From positions 1 through 64,000 of the forward strand of contig JAFWFO010000011.1 of the NCBI GenBank assembly GCA_017515635.1: a DNA stretch of 64,000 nucleotides, written 5' to 3'. The position numbers and the translations under genes were made by a program. This stretch comes from Selenomonadaceae bacterium (GTDB taxonomy: Bacteria > Bacillota > Negativicutes > Selenomonadales > Selenomonadaceae). Below, piece by piece: positions 16,765 to 23,254 of the stretch. The notes under the pieces were generated by a model. It did no database searches and was not told where the DNA came from. It saw nothing but the letters and a program-made list of their open reading frames with translations. The first letter of the stretch is position 1. The number at the start of each line of letters is the position of its first letter.

Positions 16765-18282
16765 ATGCAATACGAAAACTATATTCCGCGAATTATGCTT
16801 TGCGGCGACGAGTCGGAATTTCTGGCGCGTGTCGACAATCGCCCGTACAAAATCATCGGGCAGTTAAAAATTTCGGGCGAAGTCGACGGACAGCAATTCA
16901 ACGTCATCCAAGATAAAAAAGTTTTTTTCAACGACGAACTTCAAGACTTCGACGCGCTGAAAAATTTTTTGCTCGGCGGCGAGATTGATTATCTGGTTTT
17001 CGCGACGCGTGAATTGTTTTTGAATTATCACCGCGTTGCAGTTGAGCACTACGGACTTGTTTCGCCCAAAGCCGTCACGGTCGAACAGTTTAACCTTTTG
17101 CCACGCGAATTTTTTTACGACGCGAATATCGGCTTGCGCATGTTGGAATGGCTGAAAATTTTTTCCGTCAAAACTTTGCTCGACGTGGACGGCTTTTTTG
17201 CGACGGCGAAAGTTTTCACAAAACCCGGCAACGAATCAATCGAAATTGATTGCGTCACGGAAAAAAATCTGCCGCCGATTGCCGAAAATGTTTATCGCCG
17301 CGTCTACAAAAATCTTGCCGAAGTCGGGCTAAAAAAATATGACGCCGTACTTTTGCCCGAACTTTCGCCGACAGATTTTGACGCTACGTTTTCTTTGACG
17401 GAAAGTTTTTCGGATTATGTCTTTACGTTCGGGCGCACGGACGGCGAATTGAAAAATTACCTGCTCAGTCGTGCACAAGATTTTGCCGAAGCACGAGGTT
17501 TTCATTTGCCGACGGGCGATCTGTTTTATCTCAAGCGTCGTAAGCTGCCCGAAAGTTTTCGCATGTTCGTCGTCACGCACAAAAAAACTCCGCACGCGGG
17601 CAAGCTCCCCGACGGCTACGAAATTGTTCACGCAGGACACGCGCAAGCGACGGAGGATTTCGGCTACGCGGGCGACGACACGGGCGACAACATCAGCGAA
17701 CTCAACCTGTACTTGAACGAATTGACCGCGCTGTACTGGTTTTGGAAAAACACTTCGGATTCGATTGTCGGGCTGTGTCATTACCGCAGATTTTTCACGA
17801 CGGGCAACGAAACTTTCGCGTACGAAAAAATTTTGTCGCGGGACGACGCCTTGAAAATTTTGGAGACGCACGACATGATTGTTTCGCGATTGTTTTACGG
17901 CGTGATGACTCAGCGCGAATTTGTCGAAAACGATTGCGGTAAGCAACTTGCCAAAATCGGCGAGGCAATTTTGCGCAAACACTTGTTGCGAGTTCACCCA
18001 GATTATGTCGACGCGCTTGATTTTGTTCTTGACTCGAAGGCGGTTTATAAATGCAACATGTTCGTCACACGCCGCGAAATTTTGGACGCCTATTGCAAGT
18101 GGCTGTTCGCGTTTATCCTTGATGCGACGCGAGAAGTTTTGCTGACGACGAATCTTGAAAATCTTTCTTGGACGCCGCGAAGATTGATGTCATTTTTGGG
18201 CGAGCGCATGTTACATGTTTGGCTGTTCAAACAGCGTTTGCGGCTCAAGGAACTTAATTTCATGTTCATCGAGGGGATTTGA
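16765..18282 (+). CDS. DUF4422 glycosyltransferase-like protein with unknown N-terminal domain
   Basis: A 505-residue protein. The C-terminal half (from about residue 255) is a DUF4422 domain, found in capsule and LPS glycosyltransferases. Its signs are FVVTHKKTP, GDDTGDNISELN, LNELTALYWFWKN and IVGLCHYRRFF. The N-terminal 250 residues (IPRIMLCGDESEFLARV, DYLVFATRELFLNY, SLTESFSDYVFTFGRTDGEL) are not recognised; they may be a second, Rossmann-like sugar-nucleotide domain. ATG behind ACGGAGG. Its stop overlaps the copA start codon by one base. With the DUF1919 pair it forms a surface-glycan unit. Confidence 0.8.
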   Translation: MQYENYIPRIMLCGDESEFLARVDNRPYKIIGQLKISGEVDGQQFNVIQDKKVFFNDELQDFDALKNFLLGGEIDYLVFATRELFLNYHRVAVEHYGLVSPKAVTVEQFNLLPREFFYDANIGLRMLEWLKIFSVKTLLDVDGFFATAKVFTKPGNESIEIDCVTEKNLPPIAENVYRRVYKNLAEVGLKKYDAVLLPELSPTDFDATFSLTESFSDYVFTFGRTDGELKNYLLSRAQDFAEARGFHLPTGDLFYLKRRKLPESFRMFVVTHKKTPHAGKLPDGYEIVHAGHAQATEDFGYAGDDTGDNISELNLYLNELTALYWFWKNTSDSIVGLCHYRRFFTTGNETFAYEKILSRDDALKILETHDMIVSRLFYGVMTQREFVENDCGKQLAKIGEAILRKHLLRVHPDYVDALDFVLDSKAVYKCNMFVTRREILDAYCKWLFAFILDATREVLLTTNLENLSWTPRRLMSFLGERMLHVWLFKQRLRLKELNFMFIEGI

Positions 18283-20846
18283 TGACGAAAGAAACTTTTG
18301 ACGTGACGGGCATGACTTGTTCGGCGTGTTCGGCGCGTGTCGAAAAGGCCGTTGCCAAGGTCGTCGGCGCAGAAAATGTCAGCGTCAATCTTTTGACGAA
18401 TTCAATGCAGGTCAAGTTCGACGACAAAAAAATTTCTGCCGCGCAGATCGTCGACGCCGTTGTTGATGCGGGCTACGGAGCTTCGGTTAAAGGTGTCAGC
18501 GGTCAGGTGTCAGGTGTCAGGGAAGAACGCACGATTGACAAAGAAATTTCCGAAATGCGGACGCGTTTGTTGTGGTCGATAATTTTTCTGTTGCCGACGG
18601 TTTATATCGCAATGCATTCGATGTTGCCGTTGCCCGTGCCGCCGATTGTCGCGGAACTTTTCGACGGTCGACAAAACGCCGTGACTTTCGCATTCGCACA
18701 ATTTTTGCTCGTCCTGCCGATTATGTACCTCAACCGAAAATATTACGTCAACGGCTTCAAAACTTTATTCGCGGGCGCGCCGAACATGGACAGTTTGGTC
18801 GGTCTCGGTTCAATGGCGGCGGCGTTTTTCGGAGCATTTGCACTGTTCAGAATCGGTCAAGGTCTCGGCACCGGAAATTTCGCGCTCGTCGACGAATACA
18901 GCCGAAATTTATATTTCGAGTCGGCGGGCATGATTGTCACGCTGATAACCGTCGGGAAATTTTTCGAGGCGCGTGCCAAAGGCAAAACTTCTCAAGCCGT
19001 CGAAAAATTAATTAACCTTGCCCCGAAAACTGCGACGGTTTTGCGCAGCGGCGAAGAAATTACAATTCCCGTTGAAGAATTGATTATCGGCGATGAAATT
19101 CTTGTAAAGCCCGGCGAAAGTTTTGCGGCGGACGGAATTGTTGTTGACGGCTCAACGACGGTCGACGAAAGCGCGATAACCGGCGAAAGTTTGCCCGTTG
19201 AAAAAATTATCGGCGACAAAGTCACAAGCGGCACGCTCAACAAAAGCGGCTTCGTGAAATTTCGGGCGGCTAAAGTCGGCGGCGACACGACAATCAGTCA
19301 AATTATTTCGTTGGTCGAAGAGGCAAGCGCATCGAAAGCTCCGATTGCGAAGTTGGCGGACAAAATCGCAGGAATTTTCGTGCCTGCCGTGATTTTGATT
19401 TCGCTGGCGGCGGGAAGTTTCTGGCTTTTGAACGGCGCAAGCGTCGAGTTTGCATTTTCAATCGCCGTGTCAATTTTGGTGATAAGTTGCCCGTGCGCGT
19501 TGGGACTTGCCACGCCCGTCGCGATTATGGTCGGAACCGGCAAAGGCGCGGAGCACGGAATTTTAATCAAGTCGGGCGAATCACTCGAAACGGCGCACTC
19601 GGTCGATACAATCGTCGTCGACAAAACCGGCACGCTCACCGAAGGAAAACCTTTCGTCACGGACATTTTGCTTTGCGGCGTCGACGAAAAAAATTTTTTG
19701 CAAATCGCGGCTTCACTTGAGCGCGGCAGTGAACATCCGCTTGCCGAAGCCGTCACGAAATTTGTTGCGGGAAAAAATATTTCTGTGCCCGTCGCAGAAA
19801 ATTTTCAAGCTGTCTTTGGGCGCGGTGTTCGTGCAAAAATTGGCGGCGTCGAACATTTTGCGGGCAACGAAAATTTTTTGACTGAACTCGGCTTTAACTT
19901 GAATGGGTTGCGCGAAAAAATTTCCGAACTTGCCGACGCGGGTAAGACGCCGTTAATTTTCGCCGACGACAAAAAAATTCTCGGCATTATCGCCGCCGCT
20001 GACGTGCCGAAAAAAACTTCCGCGCAGGCCGTCAAGGAGTTTCAAAATCTCGGCGCGAATGTTATCATGTTGACGGGCGACAACGAACGCACGGCGCAGG
20101 CTGTCGGCAAAAGTTTGGGCGTCGATAAAATCATTGCGGGCGTCCTTCCCGAAAACAAAGCCGCCGAAGTCGAAAAACTTCAAGCGACGGGGCGCAAAGT
20201 TGCAATGATCGGCGACGGAATCAACGACGCTCCGGCACTTGCGCGGGCTGATGTCGGCATTGCGATTGGCGCGGGCACCGACGTTGCGATTGAGAGCGCG
20301 GGCGCGGTTCTCGTCCGAAACGATTTACTTGACGCGGTCGCCGCAATCAAACTCAGTCGCGCCGTAATGACGAACATTCGGCAAAATTTATTCTGGGCGT
20401 TTTTCTACAACGTCGTTTGCATACCGCTTGCGGCAGGAATTTTTTATCCCGCGTTCGGAGTAAAATTATCGCCGATGATTGGCGCGGCGGCAATGAGTAT
20501 GTCGAGCGTGTGTGTCGTGCTGAATGCGTTGCGGCTGAGATTTTTTAACGTCGAACGTGCCGAAACTTTTAACGAGACGGCGCGTAACGTTGAAGTCCGC
20601 GTCGAAAAAATTCAGCAACAAATTTTCAAGGAGGCAACTCAAATGCAGACAACTTTTAAGGTCGAAGGCATGATGTGCAAACACTGTCAAAAACACGTTC
20701 ATGACGCGTTGGCGAAAATGGACGGCGTGACGGCGGTCGAAGTCAGTTTGGAAAATAATTCCGCAACCGTCACCGCGACGAAAGAAATTTCCACGGACGA
20801 ATTCGCCAAAGTTATCGAAGATGCCGGCTATGAACTTGTGCGATAA
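18282..20846 (+). CDS. copA: Copper-exporting P-type ATPase with C-terminal CopZ-like domain
   Basis: Exports Cu(I) across the cytoplasmic membrane. The 854-residue protein has an N-terminal metal-binding domain (GMTCSACSARVEK, residues 8-20) and membrane segments from about residue 88. It has the transport motif SCPCALGLATP, the phosphorylation site DKTGTLTEGKP and the hinge GDGINDAPALARADVG. After residue 787 a second, complete CopZ-like domain follows (VEGMMCKHCQKHVHDAL). A copy of the AGGTGTC heptamer repeat is read in frame as GVSGQVSGV just after the first metal domain. Start at 18282, overlapping the stop of the gene before. Confidence 0.95.
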   Translation: MTKETFDVTGMTCSACSARVEKAVAKVVGAENVSVNLLTNSMQVKFDDKKISAAQIVDAVVDAGYGASVKGVSGQVSGVREERTIDKEISEMRTRLLWSIIFLLPTVYIAMHSMLPLPVPPIVAELFDGRQNAVTFAFAQFLLVLPIMYLNRKYYVNGFKTLFAGAPNMDSLVGLGSMAAAFFGAFALFRIGQGLGTGNFALVDEYSRNLYFESAGMIVTLITVGKFFEARAKGKTSQAVEKLINLAPKTATVLRSGEEITIPVEELIIGDEILVKPGESFAADGIVVDGSTTVDESAITGESLPVEKIIGDKVTSGTLNKSGFVKFRAAKVGGDTTISQIISLVEEASASKAPIAKLADKIAGIFVPAVILISLAAGSFWLLNGASVEFAFSIAVSILVISCPCALGLATPVAIMVGTGKGAEHGILIKSGESLETAHSVDTIVVDKTGTLTEGKPFVTDILLCGVDEKNFLQIAASLERGSEHPLAEAVTKFVAGKNISVPVAENFQAVFGRGVRAKIGGVEHFAGNENFLTELGFNLNGLREKISELADAGKTPLIFADDKKILGIIAAADVPKKTSAQAVKEFQNLGANVIMLTGDNERTAQAVGKSLGVDKIIAGVLPENKAAEVEKLQATGRKVAMIGDGINDAPALARADVGIAIGAGTDVAIESAGAVLVRNDLLDAVAAIKLSRAVMTNIRQNLFWAFFYNVVCIPLAAGIFYPAFGVKLSPMIGAAAMSMSSVCVVLNALRLRFFNVERAETFNETARNVEVRVEKIQQQIFKEATQMQTTFKVEGMMCKHCQKHVHDALAKMDGVTAVEVSLENNSATVTATKEISTDEFAKVIEDAGYELVR
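18491..18518. repeat. Heptamer array inside copA
   Basis: Four 7-bp units in phase (AGGTGTC, AGCGGTC, AGGTGTC, AGGTGTC), translated in frame between the first metal-binding domain and the first membrane helix of CopA. The unit is the one in the glgC-glgD gap. The site is a flexible linker, where an insertion would be tolerated. Confidence 0.88.
20628..20846 (+). promoter_or_regulatory. Internal ribosome site and start for a free CopZ-like chaperone
   Basis: Within copA, AAGGAGG at 20628-20634 is followed after 8 nt by an in-frame ATG at 20643. From there the remaining 67 codons form a complete CopZ-like metallochaperone (MQTTFKVEGMMCKHCQ start, stop at 20846). The upstream reading frame is open, so the same DNA could give both a CopA-CopZ fusion and free CopZ. 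The separate product is an inference from the ribosome site. Confidence 0.7.
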
Positions 20847-20880: not shown

Positions 20881-20909
20881 TTGACAAGGCAACTGCGCTG
20901 TGATAGAAT
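20881..20909 (+). promoter_or_regulatory. Strong sigma-70 promoter for the polyprenyl synthase/SCIFF unit
   Basis: TTGACA at 20881-20886, exactly 17 bp, TAGAAT at 20904-20909. The expected start site is near 20916, giving a very short leader. Confidence 0.85.
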
Positions 20910-20939: not shown

Positions 20940-21908
20940 TTGAATTTCGTGGCGGCACTGAGCGAGAAGGCGTCAAAAAATATTAGCGAACTTGAAGAAA
21001 ACATCAGACAGGCAATTTCCGATGACCCGTTCATTTTCGAGGCGTGCGAACCGCTGATTCGCGGCGGCAAAAGACTTCGCCCGATGCTCATGCTCCTTTG
21101 CGCGAATGCAAAAAATTCTTGCCCGAATTCGCGGACAATGCCGCTTGCCACGGCGTTGGAACTGATTCATACGGCAAGCCTCGTGCACGACGACATTATC
21201 GACACGTCGAAGAAGCGGCGCGGCGTCGAAACGGCCAACTCAAAATACGGCGCACAAATCGCGGTGCTTATCGGCGATTATCTTTTCGCCAAAGCTTTTC
21301 AGCTCGTCGCGGAAAATAATTACGGCGCGGAAGTTCAGCTGATTTTGTCGAAGCTCGTCAAGCAACTTTGTATCGGCGAAATCATGCAAGATCGTTCGTT
21401 GTTCGTCGTGCCGACCATGAGCGAATATTATCGGCGAATCAACTTGAAGACGGCAATTTTTCTGTCAAGTTGCTGTCGACTCGGCGCGATTGTTGCTCAG
21501 CTCGACGACAGCGAAATCGAACGGCTTGCGGCTTACGGCACGAGTTTGGGGCTTGCGTTCCAAATTATCGACGACCTTTTGGATTTTTGCGGCGACGAAA
21601 AAGTTACGGGCAAACCACGCGGCGGCGATCTCAAAAGCGGCGTGATAACTCTTCCCGTAGTTCGTGCCTTGTCGACGAGTGACGAAGCTCCCGCGTTGAA
21701 AAAAATCGTCACAAGCGAAACCGTCACTTGCACGGACATTGACGCGGCGATAAAAATTATTTGTGCCACGGACGCCGTCGACTACTGCAAGACGCGGGCT
21801 GAAGCGCATATCGAATCGGCGCGGGTAAATCTTCCGGCGTCGCTGAAAATTTCCGTTGCGCTTGCTCTCGAACAAATTGCCGAATTCGTCGTCGACCGCA
21901 CGAGATAA
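20940..21908 (+). CDS. Polyprenyl diphosphate synthase (trans-isoprenyl)
   Basis: Extends farnesyl-type diphosphates to a long-chain prenyl diphosphate, probably for menaquinone or a related quinone side chain. The 322-residue protein has the first Asp-rich motif in LVHDDIIDTSKKRRG (about residue 83), GGKRLRPMLMLL near 40, and the second motif DDLLDFCGDEKVTGKP near 210. The length fits hepta- or octaprenyl synthases. The start is uncertain: GTG at 20931 or TTG at 20940; the latter is better spaced from GGGTGAG. It is the first gene of a unit that also contains the SCIFF peptide. Confidence 0.9.
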   Translation: MNFVAALSEKASKNISELEENIRQAISDDPFIFEACEPLIRGGKRLRPMLMLLCANAKNSCPNSRTMPLATALELIHTASLVHDDIIDTSKKRRGVETANSKYGAQIAVLIGDYLFAKAFQLVAENNYGAEVQLILSKLVKQLCIGEIMQDRSLFVVPTMSEYYRRINLKTAIFLSSCCRLGAIVAQLDDSEIERLAAYGTSLGLAFQIIDDLLDFCGDEKVTGKPRGGDLKSGVITLPVVRALSTSDEAPALKKIVTSETVTCTDIDAAIKIICATDAVDYCKTRAEAHIESARVNLPASLKISVALALEQIAEFVVDRTR

Positions 21909-21928
21909 ATTTTTTGGAGGTAATCGAA

Positions 21929-22075
21929 ATGAAACACATCAAAACCGTCAACAAACCGAATCTTCAAGACACGCTCAACAAGGGCGGCTGCGGCGAATGT
22001 CAGGCGTCGTGCCAGAGCGCGTGCAAAACTTCCTGCACCGTCGGCAACCAAGTCTGCGAACGCCGTAAAAAATAA
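21929..22075 (+). CDS. SCIFF-type six-cysteine ranthipeptide precursor
   Basis: A 48-residue peptide starting MKHIKTVNKPNLQD, with six Cys at residues 21, 24, 28, 32, 36 and 43 in GGCGECQASCQSACKTSC and NQVC. This is the pattern of SCIFF (six cysteines in forty-five), a radical-SAM-modified peptide nearly universal in Clostridia, in which a maturase forms thioether bonds from Cys. GGAGG precedes the ATG by 8 nt. It lies 20 bp after the polyprenyl synthase stop and is followed by a terminator. The usual dedicated maturase gene is not adjacent. The role of SCIFF is unknown. Confidence 0.92.
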   Translation: MKHIKTVNKPNLQDTLNKGGCGECQASCQSACKTSCTVGNQVCERRKK

Positions 22076-22096
22076 TTCACGAACGTCAACAAAAAA

Positions 22097-22129
22097 ACTC
22101 CTCGTCAAACGCGACGGGGAGTTTTGATT
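22097..22129. terminator. Bidirectional terminator after the SCIFF gene
   Basis: Stem ACTCCTCGTC/GACGGGGAGT with loop AAACGC, flanked by A-run and T-run, between the convergent SCIFF and radical SAM genes. Confidence 0.85.
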
Positions 22130-23254
22130 TTAGAAATTTTTCAATTCGTCGGGGTCGGCCAGCCAATCTTCAAGTTTAGGATTGCCGGCAACATCCCACG
22201 GAATTTTTCGCACGCATTCACTGCACCAATGGCATAATTCCACGGGCGAAACGTCAAGTGTCGAAAGCATGTCGGAAACGTTCGGGGCATAGAGATCAAC
22301 GCCGGTTGATTCAGGAAAATTTTCTATGCCGAATTTTTCCGCAAATCTGTAGCTCAAAGCGTCCACGGGGCATTTGTAAATTTTCCCGTCGCGTAAGAAA
22401 CGACAATTCTTGTTTATACAAACTTGTTGCGACTTTATCGGATCGTTATCGCCATGAAGCGACATGATGACGGTGAAATTTCCTTGACCTTCGTCGATAG
22501 AATGAAAATGAGACAAAATTTTGTTTGCCCTGCAAACTGCTTTTATCTTGTCGACGATTTTCACAGTCGGGCGGTAAAGCGTAATGTCGACGATGACATT
22601 GTTCTCGCGAATGGCGTCAAGAATTTTTGGCGGCAAAGACGGAATTAACAAACCGTTTGTCACAATGTGCAAGTTTGTTTTCGGCAGATATTGGCGAGCA
22701 ATGTTTATGTACTCATCCAAATTTTTCAAAATCAACGGTTCACCGCCGAGTAAACGGAAAGTGATGATGTCACAGCATTGAGACAGCCTATGAATATCGT
22801 GCCGAAAATTTTCAATGGGATAAATTTCGTTACTCTTGAACAGCGGCGCGAAATGCATACAAGATTTGCAGTTCAAATTGCAACCATCAACGATGTTTGT
22901 TTCCAAGTAAGTGAAAAAATTTTTTTCGAAATTTGCCCAATAAATTTCGCCGCCATAATTCAAATCCACAAGCCCCAGTTTCGGAATTCGATAGAACTTG
23001 CAAGTTTGGACGACGGATTTGGTAAAATTTTCGCGCCCGTCTTCGGCGACAAGTAAACCGTCAAGTTCACCTGCTGACACGAGCCGCCGAAACTCAAAAA
23101 AAGTTATCAACGGTAATTCTGTTACAAAGTCAGTGTCCTTGTTACGGTCGTTTACAAAGTCGCCGATAAAAAATTTGACATCCATAGTGGTGTCTTTCAG
23201 GTTGTTTAGAAACATTTGAGCGAGAGGAGGATAACCGCAAATCGCAACTTTCAT
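22130..23254 (-). CDS. Radical SAM protein with Rossmann-like N-terminus and Cys-rich C-terminus
   Basis: A 374-residue protein. The N-terminal 115 residues begin MKVAICGYPPLAQMFLNNL, resembling the nucleotide-binding domains seen in surface-polysaccharide proteins. The radical SAM core has DGCNLNCKSCMHFAPLF (CX3CX2C, about residues 121-137) and RLLGGEPLI near 169. The C-terminal cysteines (CINKNCRF, YKCPVDAL, LCHWCSECV) suggest an extra cluster, as in SPASM/twitch domains. It is convergent with the SCIFF gene, but its CNLNCKSC core does not look like the known SCIFF maturase. More likely it modifies a glycan or peptide substrate not identified here. Confidence 0.85.
   Translation of the reverse strand: MKVAICGYPPLAQMFLNNLKDTTMDVKFFIGDFVNDRNKDTDFVTELPLITFFEFRRLVSAGELDGLLVAEDGRENFTKSVVQTCKFYRIPKLGLVDLNYGGEIYWANFEKNFFTYLETNIVDGCNLNCKSCMHFAPLFKSNEIYPIENFRHDIHRLSQCCDIITFRLLGGEPLILKNLDEYINIARQYLPKTNLHIVTNGLLIPSLPPKILDAIRENNVIVDITLYRPTVKIVDKIKAVCRANKILSHFHSIDEGQGNFTVIMSLHGDNDPIKSQQVCINKNCRFLRDGKIYKCPVDALSYRFAEKFGIENFPESTGVDLYAPNVSDMLSTLDVSPVELCHWCSECVRKIPWDVAGNPKLEDWLADPDELKNF

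Follow-up and report, generated by a model that had tools for sequence, protein, structure and literature searches.

The open reading frame at 21929–22075 of the window, the whole 64,000-nucleotide stretch of DNA that was analysed, encodes a genuine and ordinary member of the SCIFF family, and only its genomic arrangement is new. Very probably, this standard precursor is co-transcribed behind a polyprenyl diphosphate synthase gene, which serves as its expression site, and is matured in trans by a maturase encoded on another contig of the genome, C61. Few modified peptides of anaerobic Firmicutes are as widespread as SCIFF. The window genome, designated G000, appears to belong to the rumen genus Quinella (Selenomonadales, Negativicutes). 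The features discussed are the following.

20881..20909, + strand: sigma-70-type promoter, TTGACA-N17-TAGAAT, with extended -10 (11/12 matches)
20940..21908, + strand: trans-polyprenyl diphosphate synthase, start TTG 20940 or GTG 20931 (PF00348, 222 bits)
21909..21928, + strand: intergenic junction of 20 nt with a GGAGG ribosome-binding site
21929..22075, + strand: SCIFF (six-cysteine ranthipeptide) precursor, ATG 21929, TAA 22075, 48 aa
22094..22125, + strand: intrinsic terminator-like hairpin, -20 kcal/mol, z = -5.6, tail TTTTGATTTT
22133..23254, - strand: convergent radical SAM protein, outside the SCIFF system (PF04055, 38 bits)
Contig C61:12590-13915 (G000), + strand: SCIFF maturase (TIGR03974, ScfB), 585 bits against a cut-off of 425

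The 48-residue translation is MKHIKTVNKPNLQDTLNKGGCGECQASCQSACKTSCTVGNQVCERRKK. It is composed of a leader (residues 1–18) and a conserved core (residues 19–43), and contains six cysteines within about 45 residues (Cys21, 24, 28, 32, 36, and 43) together with Thr34 and Thr37. In a comparison with the SCIFF equivalog model TIGR03973 (ScfA), the peptide scores 89.7 bits (cut-off 50, E 7.8e-26) over its full length, covering model positions 1–43 of 43, which is far beyond chance level. This comparison, suggested by an earlier sequence-only reading of the window, confirms the SCIFF precursor with six-cysteine layout that the reading had recognized. A profile search of the whole 2.5-Mb genome returns the window precursor as its single TIGR03973 match. 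The six cysteines lie at positions equal to those of CteA from Clostridium (Acetivibrio) thermocellum, the partner of CteB, and Tte1186a from Caldanaerobacter subterraneus. The linked residues of these two peptides, Cys32, Thr34, and Thr37 (PMC8326336), are all present in the window precursor, which is thus of the CteA type. Unlike in the CteA/CteB system, the precursor and maturase genes lie apart, and SCIFF is the second gene after a polyprenyl diphosphate synthase. The odd gene order provides no evidence of a new function.

The sequence-only reading had observed that the usual maturase does not adjoin the SCIFF gene, which is correct, and had supposed that it might be lacking, which is not. 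A TIGR03974 search of the rest of the genome, as the reading had proposed, finds one full maturase on C61. The match covers model positions 1–450, whereas the remaining radical SAM matches reach at most 74 bits, so that absence of a maturase from the genome is ruled out. The C61 protein aligns end to end with CteB (PDB 5WGG; 511 bits over residues 1–444), carries radical SAM and SPASM domains and a CNLRCKYC motif, and is encoded downstream of hisZ and an HD-domain gene. The SCIFF maturase is therefore present in the precursor's own genome but not within ~500 bp of it. The two genes reside on separate contigs of 146 and 67 kb, both far inside, which rules out a contig-end artefact for the separation in this genome. 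Proximity of the maturase, found in 140 of 142 genomes from other genera, is a usual but not a defining feature of SCIFF systems.

By analogy, the maturation mechanism of CteA/CteB can be transferred to the window peptide with good confidence. The leader (KHIKTVNK...) would be held by the RRE domain of the maturase, whose radical SAM/SPASM core would join Cys32 to a threonine, either 34 or 37, by a gamma-thioether bond. The reaction would occur in trans, catalysed by the single SCIFF maturase of the genome.

The radical SAM gene nearest to the precursor, at 22133–23254, is convergent and of another type, as had been noted before; the sequence-only reading is correct in everything it stated about the locus itself. 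Only 57 bp separate it from the peptide gene, and in a published training set each of the 234 radical SAM genes no farther than 500 bp from a SCIFF gene was a SCIFF maturase (PMC5300114), a precedent by which this gene would act on the window peptide. That assignment is extremely improbable. TIGR03974 is absent from the matches of the gene up to E 0.001, and its weak matches are to MoaA, HxsC, and other models. No homologue is found in the clustered other loci of the genus, including the close relative G050, and the gene is apparently limited to the window genome among the genomes examined. Moreover, the true SCIFF maturase is encoded on C61. The convergent gene is accordingly rejected as the SCIFF maturase on models and distribution. 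Judged by these matches, the window locus is a counterexample to the 500-bp rule of PMC5300114, and rules based on proximity would here miss the maturase or pick the wrong radical SAM gene. The protein contains a CNLNCKSC motif.

A two-gene mRNA, synthase then SCIFF, would start at the promoter at 20881–20909 and end at the hairpin at 22094–22125. The hairpin is probably common to the SCIFF unit and the convergent radical SAM gene. Both the two-gene unit and the strong promoter had been anticipated from the sequence, and they agree with the 20-nt gap, the 11/12 promoter match, and the recurrence of the pair described below. The product chain length of the synthase is not indicated by the models: the gene falls below every curated cut-off of the NCBIfam chain-length equivalogs and satisfies only the broad PF00348. 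The best equivalog, heptaprenyl synthase component II (TIGR02748), scores 230 bits against a cut-off of 456.55. A copper P-type ATPase encoded at 18279–20846 (+) of the window carries a C-terminal fusion to a second CopZ-like domain.

The pairing with the synthase, proposed earlier as a point to check in relatives, recurs within one clade of Quinella. A synthase at least 74% identical to that of the window is present in 32 genomes, and in 29 of them SCIFF follows on the same strand with an aligned gap of 18–474 nt. The gap is 18–26 nt including the stop codon in 20 of the 29, and the short junction, about 24 nt in the clade and 20 nt in the window, holds a ribosome-binding site of SCIFF's own. 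In two genomes, G078 and G015, the synthase locus is cut by a contig end; G015, where the synthase ends 182 bases before the end, is uninformative as a case of pair loss. The pair is thus present in 29 of 30 testable species. The sole real exception is G046, which has the synthase without SCIFF behind it. Of the 29 pair genomes, 27, the window genome among them, have a TTGNNN-N17-TANAAT element 31–35 bases ahead of the point where the aligned synthase begins, and a T-run with a similar inverted repeat is seen by eye after SCIFF in most relatives. In the maturase tree, the pair genomes fall into one supported group of 31 rows (SH-aLRT 96%) that also includes G046, making a single origin the simplest reading.

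The surroundings of the pair are less stable. Only 11 of the 32 genomes have copA no more than 500 bases ahead of the synthase, and in four of the others the upstream sequence is too short to judge. By this comparison, copA has been exchanged in about half of the pair-clade genomes. The two genes of the pair therefore travel together through changing surroundings. In two pair-clade species, G016 (L067, G016:C65) and G046 (L103, G046:C55), different arrangements have placed the maturase no more than 3 kb ahead of the synthase. Where the spacer between synthase and SCIFF is longer (L130, L115, L112, and L217), it holds short repeats rich in G and A, for example taggaactaggaactagg, which may be mobile or recombinogenic in the genus.

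The occurrence of SCIFF in a Negativicutes-like genome, considered informative in the sequence-only reading, turns out to be commonplace. Among 160 genomes of the class drawn evenly, 154 contain SCIFF and 155 contain the maturase, so SCIFF as a rarity of Negativicutes is ruled out. A 2026 survey of rumen isolates had already reported ranthipeptides mainly in Bacillota_A and Bacillota_C (PMC13289728). In the literature, no paper joining SCIFF, radical SAM, and Negativicutes, or ranthipeptide and Selenomonas, was found.

What distinguishes Quinella from the rest of the class is gene order. In the 140 genomes of other genera mentioned above, out of the 142 for which both places are listed, SCIFF directly precedes the maturase on the same strand with gaps of 72–501 bases. 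The two exceptions belong to one genus; the genes are 1.4 kb apart in G155 and on different contigs in G191. In Quinella, 48 of 66 genomes hold both genes. Their distance is below 1 kb in G075, 1.65 kb in G003, 4.5 kb in reverse order in G016, and 76 kb in G066, and the genes are on different contigs in 44. The Quinella genomes are fragmented draft MAGs, and contig ends could mimic separation in individual relatives, though not in the window genome. For relatives in which both flanks are sequenced, such an artefact is ruled out by the differing neighbour genes: where flanks exist, the maturase is preceded by an HD-domain gene or, in the argF group, by a GdpP-like one. The gene upstream of SCIFF elsewhere in Quinella is argF in six genomes and a PHP-family gene in four.

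In three of nine other genera examined in the same family (G094, G166, and G127), whose SCIFF core is the same as that of the window, SCIFF stands in one row between a PHP-family gene and the maturase. In most Quinella the row is broken, with SCIFF placed behind the synthase, argF, or other genes and the maturase behind hisZ-HD, GdpP-like, or other genes. Within Quinella, G075 retains the row, and in G003 it is interrupted. Its presence in the family relatives and in G075 indicates that the separation in Quinella is derived. The SCIFF gene would have moved behind the synthase once, in a forebear shared by about 30 species of Quinella, and the synthase would most likely be a mere expression site.

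In the genus of G155 (L237, G155:C22) and G191 (L238/L239, G191:C20 and C15), SCIFF and maturase have separated independently, the second such case in the class. Genes of 190 and 111 aa intervene in G155, the latter resembling an HxlR-type regulator.

The peptide itself is under strong purifying selection. Across the 29 pair species, none of the 25 residues of the core GGCGECQASCQSACKTSCTVGNQVC is variable, whereas 23 of its 25 codons vary silently. The mean pS of the core is 0.54, and its pN of 0.025 arises solely from the two serine codon families. An invariant core despite silent codon change implies selection on the product. In the leader, 10 of 18 positions are variable, with pS 0.56 and pN 0.12.

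Given this pattern, it is highly unlikely that the separated gene is decaying in Quinella as a relic that has lost its maturation or is on the way to losing it. Such decay might be read from the leader, which tolerates changes and, in a few species, a three-residue deletion, and from genomes with SCIFF but without a detected maturase (G061 and G013) or with only an N-terminal piece of it (G004). No full maturase is found in 4 of 14 high-quality genomes of the genus. The invariant core with abundant silent change contradicts decay, and an intact maturase occurs in 51 of the 66 genus genomes, most of which are incomplete; that of the window genome is full-length. The maturase piece of G041 is cut by a contig end. 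In G061, where SCIFF is present, neither the maturase nor its usual neighbour hisZ is found, so the gap probably stems from the assembly; it resembles a missing region and weakens the case for maturase loss there, although it could be a real loss.

The pairing had also been taken to point to quinone or isoprenoid synthesis. On that account the peptide or its precursor would act on, or be co-regulated with, polyprenyl/menaquinone synthesis, and the pair would have been selected for it. An isoprenoid role is conceivable because Quinella is thought to need menaquinone for a menaquinone-linked fumarate reductase (PMC9585023), and the synthase-SCIFF pair, with its conserved promoter and junction, has persisted in 29 of 30 testable species across rearrangements of the upstream neighbour. 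Retention of this kind is weakened as an argument by the 20-nt junction, within which a break is unlikely anyway, and by confinement of the pair to one clade, i.e., one event. The same invariant peptide is found behind argF, the PHP-family gene, or other genes elsewhere in Quinella; this synthase lies near SCIFF in none of the 28 loci examined outside the genus; and G046 keeps the synthase alone. The functional link is therefore very unlikely. Equally improbable is its narrower form, in which the ranthipeptide of the pair clade would be made in step with synthesis of the polyprenyl side chain of menaquinone and have a role in the anaerobic electron-transport membrane. Comparison of gene order lends no general support to an isoprenoid role of SCIFF.

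Since SCIFF stands behind argF or a PHP-family gene in other Quinella, the synthase looks like an acquired expression site rather than a functional partner. The most parsimonious interpretation is that SCIFF requires steady expression and is parked behind various housekeeping genes. Selection would keep the peptide and not the neighbour, with a functional isoprenoid link absent.

Quinella thus offers a natural experiment, in which SCIFF and its maturase persist unlinked across the genus; linkage is therefore not needed. SCIFF expression can be borrowed from unrelated housekeeping genes, and the peptide alone is strongly selected. The pattern argues against a narrow operon-encoded function, such as that of a bacteriocin with dedicated immunity, and favours a general cellular role. 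In Clostridium beijerinckii, disruption of SCIFF altered sporulation and agr expression (PMC8102284). A regulatory or quorum-sensing role has been reported in solventogenic clostridia (Chen et al. 2020, as cited in PMC8102284 and PMC8326336).

Several genomes show further variations. In G013 (L079, G013:C146), where the SCIFF maturase is undetected, a different radical SAM gene of the SPASM type lies ~2.6 kb upstream of SCIFF. G008 has two SCIFF copies on two contigs (C139 and C64). In G020 (L063, 1347–1472) and G006 (L076, 9919–10045), a duplicate of the last ~40 codons of the SCIFF maturase follows shortly after the gene.
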